IMG/VR virus record: IMGVR_UViG_3300036719_000516
Location: 1 to 40,322 of that record
Reading direction: 5' to 3' (one strand)
Source of the DNA: a virus
Length of the DNA stretch: 40,322 bases
This document shows positions 4,817 to 35,632 of this stretch, in pieces; within the stretch, counting starts at the first letter, position 1, and the number at the start of each line of letters is the position of its first letter. Both the position numbers and the translations under genes were made by a program. The notes below the pieces were generated by a model. It saw only the letters and a list, made by a program, of their open reading frames with translations, ran no database searches and was not told the DNA's origin.

Positions 4817-5513
4817 TCCAGTCACCGGGCTCGTCGTCGGCGGGTCGAGTCTCCTCAGCGGAGCCATGCAATCCCGCGCTGCGGGTAAAGCCGCAGGCCA
4901 GCAGGCCGACGCCGCGCAGGCAGGAATCGAGGAGCAGCGCCGGCAGTTTGAGGAGATGCAGAAGCTCCTCGCGCCTTACGTCCAGGCCGGCCAGCCCGCG
5001 CTACAGGCGCAGCAGGCAATGCTCGGCCTCGGAGGCGCAGAGGCGCAGCAGCAGGCCATCGCAGGCGTCGAGCAGAGCCCGCTCCTGCAGGCGCTGATGC
5101 GTCAGGGCGAGGAGGCGATGCTGCAGAACGCATCGGCTACGGGCGGTCTGCGAGGCGGGAACCTGCAGGCCGCGCTGGCCCAGTTCCGGCCGCAGATGCT
5201 GCAGGAGGCGCTCGACCAGCAGTATGCGCGCCTCGGCGGGCTCACGGCGCTCGGGCAGCAGTCCGCTGCGGGTGTGGGCGCGGCGGGCATGGAGACGGGG
5301 CGCGGCGTTGCCGGTCTGCTCCAGCAGCAGGGCGCGGCTCGCGCAGGTGGGGCGCTCGGCCGTGCGGCACCGTTTGCCAGCCTGCTCCAGATGCCGGCCC
5401 AGATGTACGGCATGGGCGTGGGCAGCGGACGGATTCCGTTCCCGTCGTTCGGGGGTGCGCCGAGTGGCGGCTCACCGTTCTTCGGCTCTGCTGGCGGCGG
5501 CGGGGTGATGTGA
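4809..5513 (+). CDS. DNA ejection (transfer) protein, gp7-like
   Basis: This 234-residue protein is rich in Ala, Gly and Gln. It begins MPNPVTGLVVGGSSLLSGAM, a hydrophobic Gly-rich start followed by a Gln/Ala coiled segment (AGKAAGQQADAAQAGIEEQ) and a Gly/Pro-rich tail. This layout is typical of small podovirus ejection proteins that leave the virion with the DNA and help form the translocation conduit. The start at 4809 is preferred over the in-frame ATG at 4797 because the GGAGGG between them serves as its ribosome site. It is the first of three ejection-type genes and matches the P22 order 7-20-16. Confidence 0.72.
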   Translation: MPNPVTGLVVGGSSLLSGAMQSRAAGKAAGQQADAAQAGIEEQRRQFEEMQKLLAPYVQAGQPALQAQQAMLGLGGAEAQQQAIAGVEQSPLLQALMRQGEEAMLQNASATGGLRGGNLQAALAQFRPQMLQEALDQQYARLGGLTALGQQSAAGVGAAGMETGRGVAGLLQQQGAARAGGALGRAAPFASLLQMPAQMYGMGVGSGRIPFPSFGGAPSGGSPFFGSAGGGGVM

Positions 5514-7111
5514 TGGCAATCGGCCCGATCAACTACCAGATGCAGGTCGCCACGCCGTTCGAGAGCGTGCTGCAGGGGATGTCTGCAGGCGCGCAGATGG
5601 CAAACATCGAAGCCGCGCGCATGCAACGGGAGGCGCAGGCGGCGGCCCAGCAGCAGGCCATGCAGCAGCAGCAGGCCATGCAGCGGGCACTTGCGGGACT
5701 GATGGCGAACCCGAATCCGACGTTCCGCGATTACCAGAATGTCGCGGTGCTGCTGCCGAAGGATCAGGCGGCGACGCTGATGTCGGGGTGGGACAAGCTC
5801 AGTGCAGAGCAGAAGGGAAACGATCTGTCGTTCGGCGGTCAAGTGCTGTCTGCCGTGAATGCGAGCCCAGAGGTTGCGGTTTCCATGCTGCGCGAGCGGG
5901 CAACAGCAGAGCGCAACCGGGGGCGCGAGGATCAGGCGAAGGCATACGAGACCTGGGCCACGCTGGCCGAACGCGATCCAGACTCGGCCCGTGTGACTAT
6001 CGGCACGCTGGTGGCCCAGCTGCCGGGTGGCGACAAGGTGATCGAGTCTGTCGGCAAGGTTCAGGAACAGCAGCGTCAGACCGCGATGTTCGGGCCTGGG
6101 CTGGCAAAGGCTCGAGCCGATGCGGACAAGGCTGTGGCGGATGCTGTCAAGGCTGGCGTCGACGCGCAGTACGCCCCCGCGCTGGCCGTGGCTGGGCTCG
6201 GCAAGGCGCAGGCAGAGGCCATCAAAGCCGCATCGGATGCCAAGTTTGCCGACCAACTGAACCAAGCCGGCCTGACCGAGCGCAACTGGAACATCCGCGC
6301 CGCGCAGAACCGCATCAGTGTGGAATCGGCTCGGCTTGGGCTGGATCGCGACAAGACGACCGCCGACATCGCGCTGACGCTGGCGCGCGTGGGTGAGATC
6401 GCCAACAGCCTGCCGGATCAGGCGAAGAAGGACATCAACACGGCTGCTGTGGCGTCTGGGACGGCGAAGCAGCAGGCGGTGCAGTTCAATTCGTTGGCTG
6501 ACAAGTTGGCCGCAGAGGGCGGCGGCTTCGGCGTGTTTTCGTCGGCCACGGACTACTTGAAGAAGGCCACCGGCAACCAGGGCTATATGCAGGAACTCCG
6601 TCAGGAGTTCACCCGCCTGCGCAACAGCGCCGCCGTGCAATCGCTGCCTCCCGGACCCGCCACCGACCGCGACATTGCGCTGGTACTCGAGGGTTTCCCG
6701 CCTGCGAACGCGGATTCGCGCACGATGGCCGGATTCTTGCGCGGCATGGCCAAGCTGCAAGACATCAACAGCGCCGTCGAAAACGCCCGCGTGGACTGGC
6801 TGACCAACAATCGCGGATCGCTGGCACGCGCACGCAGCGGATTCCAGGCTGGCGAGTTCACGGCCAGCCCCGGCGAGACGTTCGTCGATCTCACGGCGCG
6901 CATCTCGCAGGACATCTCCAACCGATACGCGGCTGGCGACGGCGGGGCACCTCGGCAGCCTGCGCCGGCCATTCCTGGCGCTCCTGTGCAGCCTGGGCAG
7001 GTTGCCCCTGCGGGGCGTGGTCCGCGACCGGCCCCGCCCGCTTCCCCCTACGGCGGCCTGTCCAATGACGAAATCCTGCGCCGGCTGGCGATGCCGCCCG
7101 GGAGCCGCTGA
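5513..7111 (+). CDS. DNA ejection protein, gp20-like
   Basis: This 532-residue protein has an N-terminal region with a Gln-rich run (about residues 45-60, QQQAMQQQQAMQR), a long Ala/Lys/Asp helical middle (ARADADKAVADAVKAG) and a Pro-rich disordered tail (residues ~485-520). Long helical, Ala-rich proteins between a gp7-like protein and the tailspike in P22-like phages are internal ejection proteins, stored in the head and injected into the cell envelope. The ATG at 5513 overlaps the previous stop (TGATG); a GTG lies one codon upstream. Its own stop overlaps the next start in the same way. No peptidase motif was found. Confidence 0.68.
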   Translation: MAIGPINYQMQVATPFESVLQGMSAGAQMANIEAARMQREAQAAAQQQAMQQQQAMQRALAGLMANPNPTFRDYQNVAVLLPKDQAATLMSGWDKLSAEQKGNDLSFGGQVLSAVNASPEVAVSMLRERATAERNRGREDQAKAYETWATLAERDPDSARVTIGTLVAQLPGGDKVIESVGKVQEQQRQTAMFGPGLAKARADADKAVADAVKAGVDAQYAPALAVAGLGKAQAEAIKAASDAKFADQLNQAGLTERNWNIRAAQNRISVESARLGLDRDKTTADIALTLARVGEIANSLPDQAKKDINTAAVASGTAKQQAVQFNSLADKLAAEGGGFGVFSSATDYLKKATGNQGYMQELRQEFTRLRNSAAVQSLPPGPATDRDIALVLEGFPPANADSRTMAGFLRGMAKLQDINSAVENARVDWLTNNRGSLARARSGFQAGEFTASPGETFVDLTARISQDISNRYAAGDGGAPRQPAPAIPGAPVQPGQVAPAGRGPRPAPPASPYGGLSNDEILRRLAMPPGSR

Positions 7112-9104: not shown

Positions 9105-11492
9105 ATGACCACCCTCTCCATCTCCCCGCCGTTCCCGATCTTCAGCGACCGCGACGGCAGTCCGCTGGAGAACGGGTACGTCTGGGTCGGCACGGCCAAC
9201 GTCAACCCGATCACGAACCCGATTGCCGTCTACTGGGACGCGGCGCTCACGCAGCCCGCCGCATTGCCGGTGCGCACGATCAACGGCTACCCGGCCAACA
9301 ACGGCACGCCTGGGCGGCTGTACGTCAACAGCGATTTCTCGATCACGGTGCAGGACGCCAAGGGCTCGCTGGTCTACAGCGCACTCGCGGCAACTGATCG
9401 TTTCAGCGAGGTCGTCATCAGCGGTGTGGACTCCTCGCAGGTCGCGTTCCTGCAGGCGGGCACCGGGGCTCAGCCGCGCACCGCGCAGGACAAGCTGCGC
9501 GACTTCGTGCATGTCAAGGATTTCGGCGCAGTCGGAGACGGTGTGGCCGACGACACGCTCGCCATTCAGCGAGCCACGACGGCCGCAAAGAACGTCTACT
9601 TCGGAGGCGCGAACAACAGCTACAAGATCAGCGGATCAATCGTCCTGCAAAACGATTCGCATCTGGTCTTCGGTGGCGCGACCGTCACGCAGACGGCATA
9701 CCAGACGCCCATGTGGGATGCTCGCAACACCATCCGTGTGTCGATCCAAGGAGGAAGGTTCATCGGCCTTGCCGAAAGCCCGTTCGTCAACACTCCGACA
9801 TCGCTTGCAATCTGCGTGTGGGCCACTTCGGCGGCCAGGCTGTCGGTGCGCAACAACGTATTCACCGGGTTCTGTTATTCGGCTCTGATGGTTTCCAGCG
9901 GCGGCAACAGCATCGAGTTCATCGAGAACTTCGTCAGTGGCCCAGGCGCGGCAGTGCTGGGCGTGCCGTCAGTCGGCAACCGCAACTGCACGGGCGTCAC
10001 CATCGTCAGCAGCACGGGCGTTGTGGTCAGCAACAACATCATCCGGGACGCCGCGCAGGGCCTAATCATCGGCCAGCAATGCACCGATGTCGTCGTCAGC
10101 GGGAACACCATCCTCAACACGCTGGTCGAGCATGGGATGTACATCGACTCGGGTGTGCGCCGCATCGCCATCGCCAACAACACGGTGACCAACTGCTGCA
10201 GCAACGGCATCAAAGTGCAGTGGTACGACGACATTGCAACAGTGCCGAGCGATGTCACGATTACCGGCAACGTGGTGCAGAACGTCGGCACCGAGCCGAC
10301 AACGAACGGTGACGGCATCGTCTGCCTGAACTCGGTGCAGAACACGGTGGCAACCATCACCGGCATCACCGCAGCCAATCCCGCCGTGTTCACCACGGCA
10401 GCGGCGCACGGCCTAACGGCTGGCGACATCATCACCATCAGCGGTGTTGTCGGCATGGTCGATGGGGCAAGCGCGGTGGGAAACGTCGTCAACGACACCT
10501 TCGTCGTCGCTACGACTCCGCTGTCCACCACGTTCACCGTCAATACGTATGCCGACACGGTGCTGAACACGACCGGGTGGAGCGCGTACACCAGCGACGG
10601 CGCGGTGAAAAAACCGATTTACGGGGTGAACTTCACCATCGTCGGCAATACGGTGCGCACCGTGACGCAAGACGGCATCAGCGTGCGCTACGTCAAAAAC
10701 GGTGTTGTGTCCGACAACATTGTCGATACCGTGTCGCGCATCGGGTTCTCCGGGCTGTACCTGTACAACGTCAACATCGACAACAACAGCATCAGCAACG
10801 TGCAGGAGAACGGCATCTCGGCGTTCGCTCCGCTGAAGCCCACGTTCATCCGAAACAACTCACTCTTCAACTGCGGCGCGGCCGGCATCGACACCAGCGG
10901 TCGAAGCTCGGGCATGCTGATCGACGGCAACGGTGGTTCGTACATCTTGAACAACACCATCGTCGGTGAGTCCACGCAGACGAAGATGTTCTATGGCATC
11001 CAGCTTGCCAGCGGGGACAAGCGGCAGTTCGTCATCGACCACAACGTGATCCAGCGTGCCGAGAGCGCTGGCATCGTGCTGTGGAACGACACACCAAACG
11101 TCTACCCGCTCAAGTCCCTGCTACGCAACATTTCCGAGGCCGCTGCTGGGCCGAATGCGTATAGCGGGCTGGCTACCGCCGTGCCTGGGCTCGGTACGAC
11201 GTGGCGCGATTTCTTTGGTGATGTCGTTCCGGCGTCTGGTACATGGATTCAGGGCGACCGCGTATGGCAGCAAACGCCAGCGGCCAACGGCAATCTCGGC
11301 TGGGTCTGCCTTGTGTCTGGCACGCCTGGAACCTGGGTGCCGTTCGGCGTGGTGCAGCTTTCCAACGCTTACACGGTGACCAACCCCAGCACAGACCGGG
11401 CGCTCAATGTGTCTGCGGACACGACGGCGCAAGTCGCCGCCGTGCTGGGCACGCTGATCGCTGACCTGCAGACGGCTGGAGTGCTGAAGTGA
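9105..11492 (+). CDS. P22-type tailspike: head-binding domain plus right-handed beta-helix
   Basis: This 795-residue protein starts with a P22-like head-binding domain (residues ~3-115: SISPPFPIFSDRDGSPLENG, GYVWVGTANVNP, PGRLYVNSDFSITVQDAKG). The linker and pectate-lyase-3-like start is VKDFGAVGDGVADDTLAIQ (~140-160), and repeated beta-helix rungs follow (VSNNIIRDA, VSGNTILNT, IANNTVTN). A separate beta domain (~415-497) interrupts the helix. The head-binding domain trimerises on the gp10/portal complex and the helix normally binds or cleaves surface polysaccharide; substrate and catalytic residues cannot be assigned. No clear Shine-Dalgarno precedes it. It ends the tail block and overlaps the lysis cassette by 4 bases. 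Confidence 0.9.
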   Translation: MTTLSISPPFPIFSDRDGSPLENGYVWVGTANVNPITNPIAVYWDAALTQPAALPVRTINGYPANNGTPGRLYVNSDFSITVQDAKGSLVYSALAATDRFSEVVISGVDSSQVAFLQAGTGAQPRTAQDKLRDFVHVKDFGAVGDGVADDTLAIQRATTAAKNVYFGGANNSYKISGSIVLQNDSHLVFGGATVTQTAYQTPMWDARNTIRVSIQGGRFIGLAESPFVNTPTSLAICVWATSAARLSVRNNVFTGFCYSALMVSSGGNSIEFIENFVSGPGAAVLGVPSVGNRNCTGVTIVSSTGVVVSNNIIRDAAQGLIIGQQCTDVVVSGNTILNTLVEHGMYIDSGVRRIAIANNTVTNCCSNGIKVQWYDDIATVPSDVTITGNVVQNVGTEPTTNGDGIVCLNSVQNTVATITGITAANPAVFTTAAAHGLTAGDIITISGVVGMVDGASAVGNVVNDTFVVATTPLSTTFTVNTYADTVLNTTGWSAYTSDGAVKKPIYGVNFTIVGNTVRTVTQDGISVRYVKNGVVSDNIVDTVSRIGFSGLYLYNVNIDNNSISNVQENGISAFAPLKPTFIRNNSLFNCGAAGIDTSGRSSGMLIDGNGGSYILNNTIVGESTQTKMFYGIQLASGDKRQFVIDHNVIQRAESAGIVLWNDTPNVYPLKSLLRNISEAAAGPNAYSGLATAVPGLGTTWRDFFGDVVPASGTWIQGDRVWQQTPAANGNLGWVCLVSGTPGTWVPFGVVQLSNAYTVTNPSTDRALNVSADTTAQVAAVLGTLIADLQTAGVLK

Positions 11493-19710: not shown

Positions 19711-20201
19711 CCCGCCGCCGCGAAACCCTCCGCGAAACCATCGCCCGCAACCAGGCGAGCATGGACCTCTACGCCGCACTCAGTGATCGGCCGCGTGTGG
19801 TGCTGACTGCGCCGCCGCCTCCAAAACCTCGAGCCAAACGCGCACCGAGCACAGACGGCACCGAGGCCGACGTCATGCGCGCAGTGTTCGACCTCCTGCG
19901 GGCGCATCGGCGCGTGGCGTGGTTCATGCGCCTGAACTCTGGCGCAGTGCAGGACGGGGATCGCTACACGGTGTTCTACCGGCTGTACATGCGCGGCCAC
20001 AGCGGCATCACAAAGGGCGCGAGCGATTACCTCGGCCAACTCACCGATGGGCGGCTGTTCCTGCTGGAGTGCAAGCGGCCTGGGGTCAGGCGCGGCACGG
20101 TCGAGCAGGAGATGCTCATCGGCGCGTGTCAGGCCAACGGCGGCGTTGCGGGGATTGTGCAGTCGGTGGAGGATGCCATCGCTGTGTTGGGGGAGGCATG
20201 A
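19707..20201 (+). CDS. VRR-NUC domain nuclease
   Basis: This 164-residue protein has a basic, Pro-rich N-terminus (to ~45) followed by the VRR-NUC fold of the PD-(D/E)XK superfamily: E54 in DGTEADVMRAV, KGASDYLGQLTDGR with D107, and FLLECKRP with E121 and K123. A Gln/Glu helix follows. Such stand-alone phage enzymes cut branched or flapped DNA and often sit near replication genes. It overlaps both methyltransferase genes by 4 bases, forming one translationally coupled unit. Confidence 0.88.
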   Translation: MTRRRETLRETIARNQASMDLYAALSDRPRVVLTAPPPPKPRAKRAPSTDGTEADVMRAVFDLLRAHRRVAWFMRLNSGAVQDGDRYTVFYRLYMRGHSGITKGASDYLGQLTDGRLFLLECKRPGVRRGTVEQEMLIGACQANGGVAGIVQSVEDAIAVLGEA

Positions 20202-21376
20202 ATGAGCTGGCTCTTTTCGCGGGCGCTGGTGGAGGCATACTCGGAGGCCACCTGCTCGGATGGCGAACCATCTGCGCAGTCGAGTGGGAACCCTACGCAG
20301 CTAGCGTACTTGCCGCCCGACAGAATGACGGCCTTCTCCCGCCCTTCCCGATCTGGGATGACGTTCAAACCTTTGACGGACGACCATGGCGCGGCCGTGT
20401 TGACGTCGTATCTGGCGGCTTTCCCTGCCAGGACATCAGCGTTGCAGGCAAAGGCGCCGGCATTGACGGAGCCCGATCAGGCATGTGGACCCACATGGCG
20501 CGTATCGTTGGCGAGGTTCGACCCCGCTACGTCTTCGTGGAAAACAGCCCAGCGCTCCTTACTCGGGGACTCGGACGAGTCCTTGGTGATTTGGCCGCAC
20601 TCGGGTATGACTGCCGATGGACAGTGCTGGGAGCTGCCGACGTTGGAGCGCCGCATCAGCGGGACAGGTTCTGGCTTGTTGCAAGAAACGTGTCCAACTC
20701 CGCGGTGCCATATGACGAGGCCTGTGCGCGTGCGAATGGATGTGGAAAAGGGTCACAAGAGCAACCTCGAGGAGGTTGTGGCGGTGCGTGCAATGTGGCC
20801 GACTCCGAGAGCAAGCGAGACATTCCAGGGCTACGAGACTCTGAACGCATTGAAGGACGGCAATCAATCGTGGATGGGTTCTGGGCGTGGTGCAACCCTG
20901 ACAACAGCGGTGATGGCGCGCAACTTGTGGCCCACGCCAACAGCCAGCCAAGCCAGATCAGAGGGAATGATCTTGCAGATGAGAAATCTAGTGGATGCAG
21001 GCGTTCTAGATCGTGCAGAGGCGGAAGCGATGATCTCGGGGTCACTGACGCCACCGAGAATGGAAAAGTGGCCAACGCCGACAGTCTGCGGGAACTACAA
21101 CCGCAAGGGCGCCAGCCCGACCAGTGGGGACGGACTAGCGACTGCGGTGCTGAAGTGCGCGACGCCCACCGCCAGGGACTGGCAGTCGGGAAAGGCCAGC
21201 CAAGCCACGCACAACAAGAACTCGCGGCCATTGAGCGAGCAGATTGGTGGGAGTTTGAACCCGACGTGGGTCGAGTGGCTGATGGGGTGGCCGCTAGGGT
21301 GGACCGACTTAAAGCCATTGGCAACGGACAGGTTCCGCTCTGCGCCGCAACCGCATGGCGACTCCTGACAGCATGA
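20198..21376 (+). CDS. C5-cytosine DNA methyltransferase 2 (overprinted gene)
   Basis: This 392-residue protein has motif I LALFAGAGGGILGG, motif IV GGFPCQDIS with catalytic Cys77, motif VI VFVENSP, motif VIII APHQRDRFWLVA and a C-terminal motif X LKAIGNGQVPLCAA. The region between motifs VIII and IX (~170-345) is polar, low in hydrophobics and contains repeated V-A-(D/H/N) motifs rather than an obvious compact domain. The ATG overlaps the VRR-NUC stop (ATGA), and GGAGG is only 1 base from it, so translation probably relies on coupling. A second open frame runs through the whole gene (20202-21368). Confidence 0.88.
   Translation: MNELALFAGAGGGILGGHLLGWRTICAVEWEPYAASVLAARQNDGLLPPFPIWDDVQTFDGRPWRGRVDVVSGGFPCQDISVAGKGAGIDGARSGMWTHMARIVGEVRPRYVFVENSPALLTRGLGRVLGDLAALGYDCRWTVLGAADVGAPHQRDRFWLVARNVSNSAVPYDEACARANGCGKGSQEQPRGGCGGACNVADSESKRDIPGLRDSERIEGRQSIVDGFWAWCNPDNSGDGAQLVAHANSQPSQIRGNDLADEKSSGCRRSRSCRGGSDDLGVTDATENGKVANADSLRELQPQGRQPDQWGRTSDCGAEVRDAHRQGLAVGKGQPSHAQQELAAIERADWWEFEPDVGRVADGVAARVDRLKAIGNGQVPLCAATAWRLLTA
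20202..21368 (+). CDS. MSWLFSRALVEAYSEA-type protein overprinted on the methyltransferase
   Basis: A 388-codon frame, +1 relative to the methyltransferase, starts 4 bases after its ATG and ends 8 bases before its stop. It reads MSWLFSRALVEAYSEA, then TSSWKTAQRSLLGDSDES, the repeats CPTP (residue 164), WPTP (199, 243, 290) and CATP (319), and a conserved-looking end SLNPTWVEWLMGWPLGWTDL. I recall proteins with this start, these WPTP repeats and this end annotated in phage genomes. GGAGG at 20192-20196 lies 5 bases from this ATG, the ideal distance. It could instead be an unexpressed shadow of a constrained methyltransferase; function is unknown. Confidence 0.6.
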   Translation: MSWLFSRALVEAYSEATCSDGEPSAQSSGNPTQLAYLPPDRMTAFSRPSRSGMTFKPLTDDHGAAVLTSYLAAFPARTSALQAKAPALTEPDQACGPTWRVSLARFDPATSSWKTAQRSLLGDSDESLVIWPHSGMTADGQCWELPTLERRISGTGSGLLQETCPTPRCHMTRPVRVRMDVEKGHKSNLEEVVAVRAMWPTPRASETFQGYETLNALKDGNQSWMGSGRGATLTTAVMARNLWPTPTASQARSEGMILQMRNLVDAGVLDRAEAEAMISGSLTPPRMEKWPTPTVCGNYNRKGASPTSGDGLATAVLKCATPTARDWQSGKASQATHNKNSRPLSEQIGGSLNPTWVEWLMGWPLGWTDLKPLATDRFRSAPQPHGDS

Positions 21377-22090: not shown

Positions 22091-24451
22091 ATGACAGCTT
22101 CAACGGCTGACTACGCCGCCACCTACTGCCGCAAGTACGGCATGCACATCGTGCCGCTGCCACCTCGAGGCAAGCGCCCGGTGTCGGAGAACTGGGGAAA
22201 CGAGTGCATCACCGACCCTGACGCTGCGCGGCGCTATTACCAGCAGCACCCCGACGCCAACATCGGCGCAGCCCTCGGCCCATCTCGCCTGTGCAGTCTG
22301 GACATCGACAACCTCGAGGCCATGCGCATCATCTGCGCAGAGTTCGGCTGGGACATTGACGCGCTGCTGGCGCAGTCTCCGACGATTCAGGGTCAGGCAC
22401 CGAAGATGCGGATGCTGTTCCGCGTGCCCGAGGGCGAGGCGCTGCAGTATCACTCGCTGACCTGGCCGCGCCAGGACGACCAGACCAAGCGGTTCACAGT
22501 TCTCGAGATCCGCGCGGCAGACACCCAGCAGCGGCAGGACGTCCTCCCGCCCAGCATCCACCCCGACACCGGCCAGCCCTACATCTGGCTGACGAAGCCC
22601 AACGGCGCGATTCCGGAGCCGCCAGCGTGGCTGCTGGCAGTCTGGAAAAACTGGGACGCTCTCAAGCCGCAGCTGCAGGGCCTGTGCCCGTGGGCGGTTC
22701 AGCGGCCGACACCGAAGCCTCCGAAAACGCGCCGGCCTGCCAACGATACCACGCCGAGCGTGATCGACGCATACGACCAAGCGCACACCATTGAATCGGC
22801 GTTGACGCGGTACGGGTACCGGCCGCAGGGTAAGCGGTGGCTATCACCGCACTCCAGCACCGGCCTGGCCGGCGTCGTGATCTTCGACGGCAAGGCGTGG
22901 GTACACCACGCAAGCGACCCGCTGTGCAGCGATGAATCTGGGCAGCTCGTGGGGTCGTTCGATCTGTTTCGGTACTACGAGCACGGCGGGGACATCAGCA
23001 AGGCCGTTAAAGGAGCTGCAGAATCGCTCGGGATGAAACTGCCGCCCAGGGCCATTCGGGTAGCCTTGCCGGCACCTCCCCAAGCCACCGAAATCATCGA
23101 CCCCGAAACCGGAGAAGTCGAAGCACTGCCGCCCGAGTTCTCGGACGACTCGCTGGCGCTGGAGTTCGTGGCGCAGTACGGTGCCGGCCTCAGGTGGTCT
23201 CCAGGACTTGGCTGGATGCACGACGATGGCACACACTGGAAGCGAGACGAGCACCTGATTCGGTTCGACCTGGCCCGCAAAACCGCCAGGTCGCAGGCGA
23301 TGCTGGCCGACGCCAAGGTGCGCAAGGCCATCACCAGCGCCAAGACCGTCAACGCGCTAATCTTCCTGGCGCAGTCTGACCCGGCGATCGTGGTGCCAGC
23401 GGCGCAGTGGGACAACGACCCGCTGATGCTCAACACGCCTGCAGGTCTGGTGGATCTGCGCACCGGGAAAATACACCAGCGCAACCGAGACCAGTATCTG
23501 ACGCAGCTGGCGAGGGTATCTCCAGATACTGACCAACCCATCGACAACTGGCTGCGTTTCATATCTCAGGTATTCGCAGACGACGCCGACACAATTGAGT
23601 TTATCCAGCGCATGTGCGGCTATTGCCTCTCGGGAGACAGGCGCGAGCAGAAACTGTTTTTTGCCCACGGCCAAGGAAGCAACGGCAAGTCCACCCTGCT
23701 CGACATTCTTATGTGGATGATGGGCTCTTACGCCCTCAAACTGCCAACCACTGCGCTGATGGCGAGCAGGAACGAGCGGCATCCGACCGAACTTGCCCAG
23801 CTTCACGGCAAGCGCCTAGCTGTCAGCAATGAGCTCGAGGAGGGCAGTTTTTGGGCCGAGGCGCGGATTAAGGAACTCACCGGGGACGAGACGCTAACGG
23901 CTCGGTTCATGCGGCAGGACAACTTCACGTTCACCATGAGCCACAAGCACCTGATCGCTGGCAACCACAAGCCACGGCTCAAGGGCGGCGACCCTGCGAT
24001 GGCCCGTCGCATGGTGCTGGTGCCTTTCCTGCAGTCGTTCCACGGCGCGGCGAAAGACACAAAGCTGCCCGAGAAACTCAAAGCCGAGGCGGCTGGCATC
24101 ATGGCCTGGGTGGTGCAGGGCGCACGGAAGTGGTACGCCGATGGGCTGGCTATCCCGAGCAGCGTGGAGGCTGCCAGCCGGGACTACATGGCCGAGCACG
24201 ATGACATCGCAATGTGGATCGAGGAGTGCTGCAAGCTCGACCCAGGAACGCACGCCAGATCGTCAGACCTCTACGCCTCGTTCCGGCGCTGGAAGCAGGC
24301 GCGAGGCGAGCATGAGCCTTCGCAGACGGTGTGGGGGGAGAAGATGACGTTGGTTCCTGGGCTGCGCAAGGTTAAGATGACCGGCATCATTACGCTGAAG
24401 GGAATCGACTTGAACGCGACAGAGAAGGCCAGGAATCAGGGTTTACCCTAA
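22091..24451 (+). CDS. Primase-polymerase / SF3 helicase replication protein
   Basis: This 786-residue protein has an N-terminal bifunctional primase-polymerase domain (residues ~5-190: PPRGKRPVSENWG, NIGAALGPS, and the catalytic S-L-D71-I-D73-N). A linker with two sub-domains follows, then a D5_N/P4-type superfamily 3 helicase (~430-690) with Walker A GQGSNGKS at ~527, Walker B-like LAVSNELEEGSFW, and sensor motif GNHKPRLKG. A C-terminal winged-helix tail occupies ~705-775. It should initiate and unwind at the phage origin and synthesise primers. The 117-bp gap before it has no convincing promoter. Confidence 0.92.
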   Translation: MTASTADYAATYCRKYGMHIVPLPPRGKRPVSENWGNECITDPDAARRYYQQHPDANIGAALGPSRLCSLDIDNLEAMRIICAEFGWDIDALLAQSPTIQGQAPKMRMLFRVPEGEALQYHSLTWPRQDDQTKRFTVLEIRAADTQQRQDVLPPSIHPDTGQPYIWLTKPNGAIPEPPAWLLAVWKNWDALKPQLQGLCPWAVQRPTPKPPKTRRPANDTTPSVIDAYDQAHTIESALTRYGYRPQGKRWLSPHSSTGLAGVVIFDGKAWVHHASDPLCSDESGQLVGSFDLFRYYEHGGDISKAVKGAAESLGMKLPPRAIRVALPAPPQATEIIDPETGEVEALPPEFSDDSLALEFVAQYGAGLRWSPGLGWMHDDGTHWKRDEHLIRFDLARKTARSQAMLADAKVRKAITSAKTVNALIFLAQSDPAIVVPAAQWDNDPLMLNTPAGLVDLRTGKIHQRNRDQYLTQLARVSPDTDQPIDNWLRFISQVFADDADTIEFIQRMCGYCLSGDRREQKLFFAHGQGSNGKSTLLDILMWMMGSYALKLPTTALMASRNERHPTELAQLHGKRLAVSNELEEGSFWAEARIKELTGDETLTARFMRQDNFTFTMSHKHLIAGNHKPRLKGGDPAMARRMVLVPFLQSFHGAAKDTKLPEKLKAEAAGIMAWVVQGARKWYADGLAIPSSVEAASRDYMAEHDDIAMWIEECCKLDPGTHARSSDLYASFRRWKQARGEHEPSQTVWGEKMTLVPGLRKVKMTGIITLKGIDLNATEKARNQGLP

Positions 24452-24463
24452 GACTTTTGCCGC

Positions 24464-24559
24464 AGGGGAGGGTAGGGGATACTTGTCCGGTTTCATACGT
24501 CACACGCGCACGCGCACGCGATACCCGTGGAATAGGATGACCCTCCCCTACCCTCCCCT
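24464..24559. other. 16-bp inverted repeat flanking an alternating CG/CA tract; origin-like segment
   Basis: A perfect 16-bp inverted repeat, aggggagggtagggga (24464-24479) and its complement (24544-24559), encloses 64 bases. The loop contains 20 bases of strictly alternating pyrimidine-purine (24501-24520), a composition prone to left-handed DNA. The arms are strongly purine/pyrimidine asymmetric. It follows the replication protein and precedes a lower-GC gene. A possible extended -10 (TGATATAGT) lies at 24574-24582. Origin, attachment scar or transcription structure are all possible. Confidence 0.5.
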
Positions 24560-24602
24560 AGTGTCCAGAAATGTGATATAGTGGAGACTTCAAGGAGGCA
24601 TC

Positions 24603-25076
24603 ATGCTGAAACAAGTTTCTCACTGGATAGCCGAGTGCTGCGACACGGGCTCTGTTGCCACGACTAGTGCTGCGGAGTTGTTCGCATCGTTTAGTGCATG
24701 GTCAAAGCGTCAAGACCTCTACCCAGGGACGATCTGCTCATGGGGAACAGCCATGAAAGAGCATCATCAGATCGTCAAGGTGAAGCGAAACGGATTGATG
24801 GCGTACAAAGGGATTGCCATCAAAGGTCGGAAGAGTCAAGAAAACGAGAAAAAACCAGCTTTCGACACATGGCTTAGGATGCAGTTTAGGCGCGATGATC
24901 CAGTTGGCGATCTCGCATCAGATGTCATGGCGGACCCTAGGCTTAAGCGCAAACGATTTGGATACGCATCACTGCTGGATCACTTGATGGGCAGCAGAGC
25001 CTGCCTTGATGCGATTGTTACCTTAAGAGACGCGCACGATGAGTTTAAGCAGATGACGAAGGGATCAAAACCATGA
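24603..25076 (+). CDS. D5-tail winged-helix plus YozE_SAM-like protein
   Basis: This 157-residue protein has residues ~7-73 (WIAECCDTGSVATTSAAELF...VKVKRNGLMAYKGI) that align with residues ~708-775 of the upstream primase-helicase (WIEECCKLDPGTHARSSDLY...VKMTGIITLKGI). This is a detached copy of the helicase's C-terminal winged helix. The rest (FDTWLRMQFRRDDPVGDLAS...YASLLDHL) matches the YozE_SAM-like pattern (PF06855). AAGGAGG lies 5 bases before the ATG. Base composition is visibly more AT-rich than in neighbours, suggesting later acquisition. It may modulate replication initiation. Confidence 0.75.
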   Translation: MLKQVSHWIAECCDTGSVATTSAAELFASFSAWSKRQDLYPGTICSWGTAMKEHHQIVKVKRNGLMAYKGIAIKGRKSQENEKKPAFDTWLRMQFRRDDPVGDLASDVMADPRLKRKRFGYASLLDHLMGSRACLDAIVTLRDAHDEFKQMTKGSKP

Positions 25077-25489
25077 GAACCAAGCCAGGAAGCTTTGACC
25101 GCGCAAAGATAGCAGAGCGCGTCATCCACGGAATGCAGCGCGAGGGCCTGAGCTGCTTCAAGGCTTGCCAGCAGGCCGGCATTGCGCACAGCACGTTTAT
25201 GGGATGGGTTGCGGAAGACGCCGCGCTGGCCGACACATACGCGCGCGCGAGAGAAGACTTGATCGAGAAAATCGCGGCCGACCTGATGGATATATCCGAC
25301 CAAGACCCGGAAATTGTCGATGGCAAAAAGGACTGGGCCGCGATTCAGAAACACAAACTGCAGGTAGATACTCGCAAGTGGCTGTTATCGAAACTCGCCC
25401 CGAAGAAATACGGCGACATGATTAAGCTGGCCGGCCACGACGGCGGCGCGGTGAAAATCATTGCGCAGAATGACGACGAAAAACTCTGA
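25073..25489 (+). CDS. Terminase small subunit
   Basis: This 138-residue protein has an N-terminal helix-turn-helix (GLSCFKACQQAGIAHSTFMG with W following), then YARAREDLIEKIAADLMDIS and VDTRKWLLSKLAPKKYGDMI, the order usual in phage small terminases of the Sf6/P22-related type. It should recognise the pac site and load the large subunit. The ATG overlaps the previous stop, and it is directly followed by the large terminase. A pac site often lies within this gene in headful phages, but none can be located by eye. Confidence 0.88.
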   Translation: MRTKPGSFDRAKIAERVIHGMQREGLSCFKACQQAGIAHSTFMGWVAEDAALADTYARAREDLIEKIAADLMDISDQDPEIVDGKKDWAAIQKHKLQVDTRKWLLSKLAPKKYGDMIKLAGHDGGAVKIIAQNDDEKL

Positions 25490-34482: not shown

Positions 34483-35385
34483 ATGGCACAGCAAATTGTT
34501 TTCCCCCACGGCGAGGTTCAAGTCTCGCTGACTGCCACCCAGGCAATCGCGGTGCGCACCACGGGTCCGGGCAATCCGGCGTCTGTCTACCGGCAGGCTG
34601 GCTTCCCGAACTACCCGAACTCGTACACCTTGCTCGGCACCGTGTCCGACGAGGAGAAGAGCTTCGGGCCGTTTACGGGCGGCGGCGTGATCAAGATCGA
34701 AGCCGGCCCGAATCAGGTGTTCTACAACGTCGACACGAACCCGATGGGCGCGGTCGTGTTCGACGCACCGATTGGCAACCCGTCGTTCTTCGGCTACTTC
34801 ACGGACTTCGTGGAGTACGACAGCAACACCTGGACGATCACCGAGACGGGCGCGGGCACGGACCTGTCGGGCGACGAGGTGGGAGGCACGCTGGTGCTGA
34901 CCAACGCGGGCACCGACAACGACAAGCACGCCTTGCAGCTCGGCAAGACCAACGGCGAGTGCTTCAAGTTCACGGCTGGCAAGGCGCTGTGGTTCGACGC
35001 TCGGTTCAAGGTGGACAACGTGCTGGCCGACACCATGATCGGCCTGTACGTCACGGACACCGACCCCGAGGGTGGCGTGTCGGATGGCGTGTACTTCCGC
35101 CGCCTGACCACCGCCACCGCGCTGAACCTCGTCATCGAGGCGTCTTCGACCGAGACGGTGGTGACGACCGGCATCGTGATGGCCAACGACACCTACGTGA
35201 ACGTCGGCTTCTACTACGATGGCGCGAAGCTGTTCTACACCCAAAACCGCCAGATCATCGGTGAGGCGACCTCGCTGGCCAACCTGCCGACCGGCGAACT
35301 GCGACTGTCCCTGCTGGTGCAGAACGGCACGGGGGTGGCGCGGTCGATGACGGTGGACTGGGTCGGCGCTCACCAGCAGCGTTGA
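34483..35385 (+). CDS. Virion protein co-transcribed with coat
   Basis: This 300-residue protein is beta-rich throughout. The N-terminal ~95 residues (VFPHGEVQVSLTATQAIAVR, VIKIEAGPNQVFYNV) look like one small beta domain. The remainder (KALWFDARFKVDNVLADTMI, TDTDPEGGVSDGVYFRRL, YVNVGFYYDGAKLFY) resembles a concanavalin-like jelly roll as seen in phage decoration or spike proteins. It shares the coat transcript and is followed by a terminator, suggesting high copy number and a capsid-decoration role. The family is not certain. Confidence 0.72.
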   Translation: MAQQIVFPHGEVQVSLTATQAIAVRTTGPGNPASVYRQAGFPNYPNSYTLLGTVSDEEKSFGPFTGGGVIKIEAGPNQVFYNVDTNPMGAVVFDAPIGNPSFFGYFTDFVEYDSNTWTITETGAGTDLSGDEVGGTLVLTNAGTDNDKHALQLGKTNGECFKFTAGKALWFDARFKVDNVLADTMIGLYVTDTDPEGGVSDGVYFRRLTTATALNLVIEASSTETVVTTGIVMANDTYVNVGFYYDGAKLFYTQNRQIIGEATSLANLPTGELRLSLLVQNGTGVARSMTVDWVGAHQQR

Positions 35386-35402
35386 TCGGGTAACCCAGTG
35401 AC

Positions 35403-35438
35403 ACGCGGGCGGTGGTCTGAGGCTGCCGCCCGCGTTTT
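35403..35438 (+). terminator. Intrinsic terminator after the coat unit
   Basis: The arms acgcgggcgg (35403-35412) and ccgcccgcgt (35426-35435) form a perfect 10-bp GC-rich stem with a 13-base loop, followed by TTTT (35435-35438). It lies 17 bases past the gene at 34483-35385 and is the clearest terminator in the window. Confidence 0.88.
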
Positions 35439-35455
35439 CGTATCAGGAGACTGAG

Positions 35456-35632
35456 ATGCCGATGAAGAAGGGTTACTCGCAGAAATCAATCAGCGAGAAT
35501 ATTTCTATGGAAATGAAGGGCAACAAGCGTCCGCAGAAGCAAGCCGTCGCCATCGCGCTGAACACGGCTCGCACCGCTGCCATGAAGGCTGGCAAGCCGG
35601 GCAAGGCCCCTGCGAAGAAGGGGATGAAGTGA
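35456..35632 (+). CDS. Small basic protein (DUF6496-like)
   Basis: This 58-residue protein begins [20 protein letters not shown] and includes [20 protein letters not shown], with a Lys/Ala/Gly tail. The 'KxxxQAVAIALxxAR' helix is a recurring signature of tiny basic phage proteins near head genes (DUF6496 type), some found in virions. AGGAG is located 6-9 bases upstream of the ATG. It may bind packaged DNA, but this is inferred from charge only. Confidence 0.72.

Follow-up and report, generated by a model that had tools for sequence, protein, structure and literature searches.

The locus studied here lies in a freshwater phage (IMG/VR record IMGVR_UViG_3300036719_000516), of which the whole stretch of 40,322 bases was analysed and is referred to as the window. 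The genes of the window include DNA methyltransferase genes, a gene for a single-strand binding protein-like product, a replication helicase gene of the Prim-Pol/D5_N/SF3 type, the open reading frame (ORF) 24603-25076, the genes for the small (TerS) and large terminase subunits and a portal gene (Table 1). The ORF has its own Shine-Dalgarno sequence and encodes a separate protein of 157 amino acids with no attached primase or helicase domains, and its stop codon overlaps the start codon of TerS in the motif ATGA. Because the domain that resembles the helicase tail is encoded apart from the primase and helicase domains, we call it detached. Elsewhere in the window, two long overlapping ORFs on the plus strand (19919-21376 and 20202-21368) are read in different frames, and each has a match to a DNA methyltransferase family (Pfam C-5 methylase, E = 9e-33; phrog_1008, E = 1e-30). 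The matched parts overlap at approximately 20388-20698, and this is possibly a true gene overlap.

Table 1. Position of the features between the helicase and terminase genes, in coordinates of the window.
Feature	Position	Strand	Evidence
Prim-Pol + D5_N + SF3-type (DUF5906) replication helicase, 786 aa	22091..24451	+	Pfam Prim-Pol 8e-25, D5_N 1e-21, DUF5906 8e-12
C-terminal winged-helix tail of the helicase, which the detached copy resembles	24194..24448	+	predicted winged helix
Hairpin of ~97 nt, putative replication origin	24464..24560		inverted repeat, fold z -5.9, conserved in close relatives
Extended -10-like TGATATAGT, possible promoter of the detached-tail gene	24574..24582	+	sequence reading; identical in L011
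Shine-Dalgarno AAGGAGG, four bases before the ATG of the detached-tail gene	24592..24598	+	read from sequence
Detached helicase tail + YozE-like protein, 157 aa	24603..25076	+	similarity to helicase tail, Pfam/PHROG profiles, L011 ortholog
Winged-helix domain, residues 5-74, RFX / P4-origin-binding type	24615..24824	+	AlphaFold2 pLDDT 94-97
YozE_SAM-like domain, residues 88-150	24864..25052	+	Pfam E 8e-4, phrog_8600 E 3.9e-5
Terminase small subunit (TerS)	25073..25489	+	Sf6_terminase E 1e-23

An earlier note, made from the DNA letters alone, had proposed that the N terminus of the protein corresponds to the C terminus of the adjacent helicase, and this was confirmed. With BLASTP, residues 5-85 of the ORF aligned to residues 706-786 of the helicase with 31% identity (E = 1e-10), and the Smith-Waterman score of the ORF against the helicase tail was 109, compared to a maximum of 51 among 2000 shuffles. 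The shared motifs that the note had listed (WIxECC, LxASF, WGxxM, KVK and KGI) are present. Independent phage profiles agreed with this, as phrog_1829 ('DNA primase', E = 3e-5) placed the segment at the C terminus of DNA primases and phrog_6088 matched with E = 4e-4. A full-length ortholog with 64% identity was found in the same slot of a related record (IMGVR_UViG_3300042554_001095, here L011), indicating that the detached-tail gene is real. The dN/dS between the two orthologs was approximately 0.11 (NG86), although with a dS of 2.4, near saturation, the exact ratio is soft. A chance similarity or artefact was ruled out by the E-values, the shuffles, the ortholog and the low dN/dS, and a decaying duplicate by the purifying selection. 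As judged from these sequence comparisons, the gene is a detached and diverged copy of the C-terminal domain of the helicase. Its own ribosome site and lower GC content had also been noted correctly. The GC content was 50.4%, compared to 62.9% for the helicase gene and 64.3% for the window, and GC3 was 55% versus 79%, indicating that its compositional history or constraints differ from those of the helicase gene.

In the AlphaFold2 model of the protein, residues 1-75 form a winged helix (pLDDT 94-97). The best structural matches of this domain (VIA) were the DNA-binding domains of RFX1 and RFX5 (PDB 1dp7 and 8zjr; Z 10.1 and 10.0), followed by the C terminus of the ASFV PrimPol (Z 8.4) and the origin-binding domain of phage P4 (PDB 1ka8; Z 8.0 over 73 residues). 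The helicase tail, which was modelled separately, matched the same four structures with Z scores from 9.7 (RFX5) to 7.7 (1ka8), so that both tails are predicted winged helices of the origin-binding type, in line with the earlier note. The best viral matches in BFVD were C termini of phage primases/helicases and many short stand-alone proteins, and a sequence search of solved structures gave nothing useful. RFX proteins are eukaryotic transcription factors and no functional relation to the detached tail is implied; winged-helix likeness alone gives no proof of function. The alpha protein of P4 is likewise a phage primase-helicase with a C-terminal winged helix. However, the P4 domain lies within alpha and P4 has iterons, whereas the window phage has a hairpin and encodes a second copy of the domain separately, joined to a YozE domain.

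The wing is the best conserved region of the fold, with 46% identity between detached and helicase copies and 67% among detached copies, whereas helix 3, usually the recognition helix, and its loop share 21% identity between the detached and the helicase tail. As helix 3 has diverged and the wing was kept, the DNA target of the detached tail may overlap that of the helicase without being equal to it, and on this comparison overlapping but non-identical sites are likely. Between the window and L011 the identity was 74% for the YozE half, 54% for the detached winged helix and 94% for the helicase tail; the faster evolution of the detached winged helix, together with the divergence of helix 3, again suggests that the targets may differ.

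The second domain had been described as YozE_SAM-like, and the profile searches pointed the same way. It resembles the family of B. subtilis YozE (PF06855, YozE_SAM_like or DUF1250), for which the window protein scored 19.9 bits (E = 8e-4), below the gathering cut-off of 25 bits, and the L011 ortholog 29.8 bits (E = 6.8e-7), above it. This part was modelled as all-helical with low confidence (pLDDT 54-86), and in the fold search with this low-confidence half the solved YozE structure was not listed. In plasmid proteins of Burkholderia and Xanthomonas the PF06855 domain is also C-terminal, with unrelated N-terminal regions. Only the window phage and L011 were found to join this domain to a helicase tail.

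The earlier note had pointed to the segment 24452-24602 as a possible binding site, and rightly so, as a conserved hairpin, probably the origin, lies within it. The outer arms of the hairpin are perfect over 16 bp (24464-24479 and 24544-24559) and the apical part reads CGCGCACGCGCACGCGATACCC; CGCGATACCC at the apex is unique in the record. The predicted fold had an energy of -58.9 kcal/mol for the 121 nt tested (z -5.9), and after GC correction it ranked first among the 2011 windows of 110 nt across the record. The second strongest GC-corrected fold (approximately 35341-35510, z -3.8) lies beside an ORF boundary near 35373. The hairpin was kept in the close relatives whatever gene comes next, with or without the detached-tail gene. 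In the relative L027 the arms have diverged and a comparable hairpin of its own is present (z -5.8). For a covariation count the hairpins of the close relatives were too similar, and that of L027 gave no alignment. Among more distant loci, a strong fold was found 3' of the helicase gene in several, but not in all (L128, z -0.7).

The window phage has the layout of the Sulfolobus plasmid pRN1, in which a stem-loop of approximately 100 nt lies directly after ORF904, a Prim-Pol/SF3/winged-helix gene, and is needed for replication (PMC4234260). The authors of that study note a similar stem-loop in phage BIP-1 (PMC4234260), which served us as a control and has a winged-helix tail with no detached copy nearby. 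Since its position matches that of the stem-loop essential for pRN1 replication, the hairpin is, by analogy, probably the replication origin; the GC skew showed no clear turning point at the hairpin. The copy number of pRN1 is controlled by a small accessory protein (PMC4234260), and for its ORF56, which is cotranscribed with orf904, a role as transcriptional repressor is described. Unlike in the window phage, no copy of the ORF904 tail has been described for pRN1.

Most close relatives (L012-L021) carry helicase, hairpin and terminase with no gene between, indicating that the detached-tail gene is non-essential. In the same slot, L027 has only a winged helix (79 amino acids, without YozE), L126 has a YozE-like ORF alone between helicase and TerS (917-1141, 74 amino acids), and L131 has an ORF of 81 amino acids (5421-5666) that is YozE-like by a weak score (E 0.13) and position only. 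As the winged helix and YozE-like ORFs also occur apart, the fused gene can be read as two small modules. In another lineage, L133 encodes a winged helix with an Arc/CopG-like (ribbon-helix-helix-like) end directly 3' of the helicase gene (2578-2976; phrog_3431, E 7e-5 for the C-terminal end). A second small Arc-like ORF is present at 4022-4222 of L133. In L128, a detached tail winged helix ends an ORF of 143 amino acids on the minus strand (9207-9638), approximately 4 kb from the helicase gene, and there is no hairpin after the helicase. In the collections searched, the L133 protein, the YozE-like ORF of L126 and the Burkholderia YozE domain had no relatives beyond themselves, and scans of genome contigs found no prophage or bacterial relatives.

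This gene order bears on the possibility that the protein links replication to packaging, in that it would bind the hairpin and, via YozE or co-translation with TerS, recruit or time the terminase. The ATGA overlap and the YozE-like or tail-like genes between helicase and TerS in L011, L027, L126 and L131 are consistent with such a role. However, several TerS types directly follow the hairpin in relatives without the gene, and the detached tail of the Efquatroviruses, described below, is in an operon that is transcribed away from the terminase, which makes this linking role quite improbable.

In a tree of the winged helices, the detached copies of the window phage, L011 and L027 cluster in a single clade (98/92), whose sister group, moderately supported (84/77), comprises the helicase tails of the same phage group. 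The tree thus gives no support for a recent duplication of the window helicase itself and points to an older event. The detached copy of Enterococcus phage AUEF3 pairs with the helicase tail of its own phage (98/96), so that at least two separate detachments are required; the L133 and L128 copies had no resolved position.

The AUEF3 protein (AHN83318) and its relatives are early proteins of the Efquatroviruses and, similar to the window protein, are a detached winged helix beside an origin-like region, here with iterons. In contrast to the window protein, the AUEF3 protein has an N-terminal extension instead of YozE, and its gene opens its operon, with several kb separating it from the helicase gene. 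In the Efquatroviruses (L137-L142) the detached-tail gene adjoins a divergent AT-rich region. That of AUEF3 contains six sites with at most one mismatch from ATGAAGAACAC, and ten were found in the whole record compared to 1.4 expected. The repeat type tracked the type of the helicase tail in all six genomes, with TGAAGAACA accompanying AUEF3-like and AAGTGTTAC heks/L1-like helicase tails. This supports the helicase tails as origin binders and, by sequence, hints that the tail sets origin specificity in the Efquatroviruses. No repeat was found in these six genomes that tracks the type of the detached tail, and in phiSHEF5 and phiNASRA1 an AUEF3-like helicase tail occurs together with a detached tail of the heks-like type. 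Both observations weaken the assumption that the detached tail must share the DNA target of the helicase.

The Efquatrovirus arrangement is also relevant to the alternative that the detached tail regulates transcription and takes no part in starting replication. It would then repress or activate a promoter situated between the hairpin and the terminase/structural operon. A repressor would fit with the RFX-type domains and with the L133 version fused to an Arc/CopG-like end. The extended -10-like site directly upstream of the gene is conserved in L011, the window gene heads the terminase operon with the ATGA overlap, and the AUEF3 gene is likewise first in its operon, beside the divergent intergenic region. 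However, most relatives run the same operon without the detached-tail gene, the nearby sites (hairpin, iterons) are origin-like rather than a simple operator, and no sigma-70 site was reported by a promoter scanner in the stretch from the hairpin to the ORF. We regard a purely transcriptional role as unlikely.

In the reading that we prefer, the protein would have its binding site in or close to the origin and from there influence either the loading of the helicase or the promoter of its own gene. We give this about an even chance; the DNA binding and the direction of its effect are what we infer. The earlier note had suggested that the protein may compete with or extend the DNA- or origin-binding tail of the helicase, and its interpretation as a whole is supported in part. 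The hairpin would be the replication origin and be bound by the helicase tail, and the detached tail would use its conserved wing to bind this same hairpin or the DNA beside it. As the detached tail lacks primase and helicase domains, its occupancy of the site would modulate helicase loading, most simply by lowering initiation. In addition, it may repress transcription from its own putative promoter, adjacent to the 3' arm of the hairpin, and the YozE domain may add a further contact, by self-association or with a partner. The overlap with the terminase start suggests late expression in the window phage, and the protein could in this way help to damp initiation once packaging begins. Alternatively, the detached tail could be a positive accessory factor that bends or opens the hairpin and helps to load the helicase instead of blocking it. 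The same structural data, the conserved wing and the purifying selection are consistent with this, but most of the relatives whose hairpin and helicase tail are nearly identical do without the gene, and we consider a loading aid very improbable.

The origin-occupancy reading draws, at the level of sequence and prediction, on the homology, the fold, the purifying selection, the adjacency to the hairpin and the recurrence of the arrangement. The divergence of helix 3, the mixed tail types in the Efquatroviruses, the patchy presence of the gene, the assignment of the origin by analogy and the GC skew speak against it. Truncated forms of initiators or origin binders, for example papillomavirus E8^E2, contain the DNA-binding part without the activity domain and inhibit by competition. 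Such forms are made by splicing or internal starts within one gene, and are not a separate, diverged paralog. The fold is a known origin-binding one, but in the literature searched, mostly openly readable papers, no description of detached helicase tails was found.

Little is known of how Prim-Pol/SF3 phages control replication, and most of their origins have yet to be mapped. The conserved hairpin provides a concrete origin candidate, and the detached, presumed origin-binding domain a concrete candidate for a regulator. The Efquatroviruses offer a culturable system for asking whether origin-binding tails are reused as regulators. As detached tails arose at least twice in unrelated phages, they suggest a little-noticed control of the time at which phage DNA is copied. 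Tentatively, and with less confidence than for the window protein itself, we propose that a regulator of origin occupancy has evolved repeatedly in Prim-Pol/SF3 phages, in the form of a separate detached tail that is encoded next to the origin and stands alone or carries a YozE or ribbon-helix-helix domain. If this is true, detached tails would represent an undescribed class of phage replication control.
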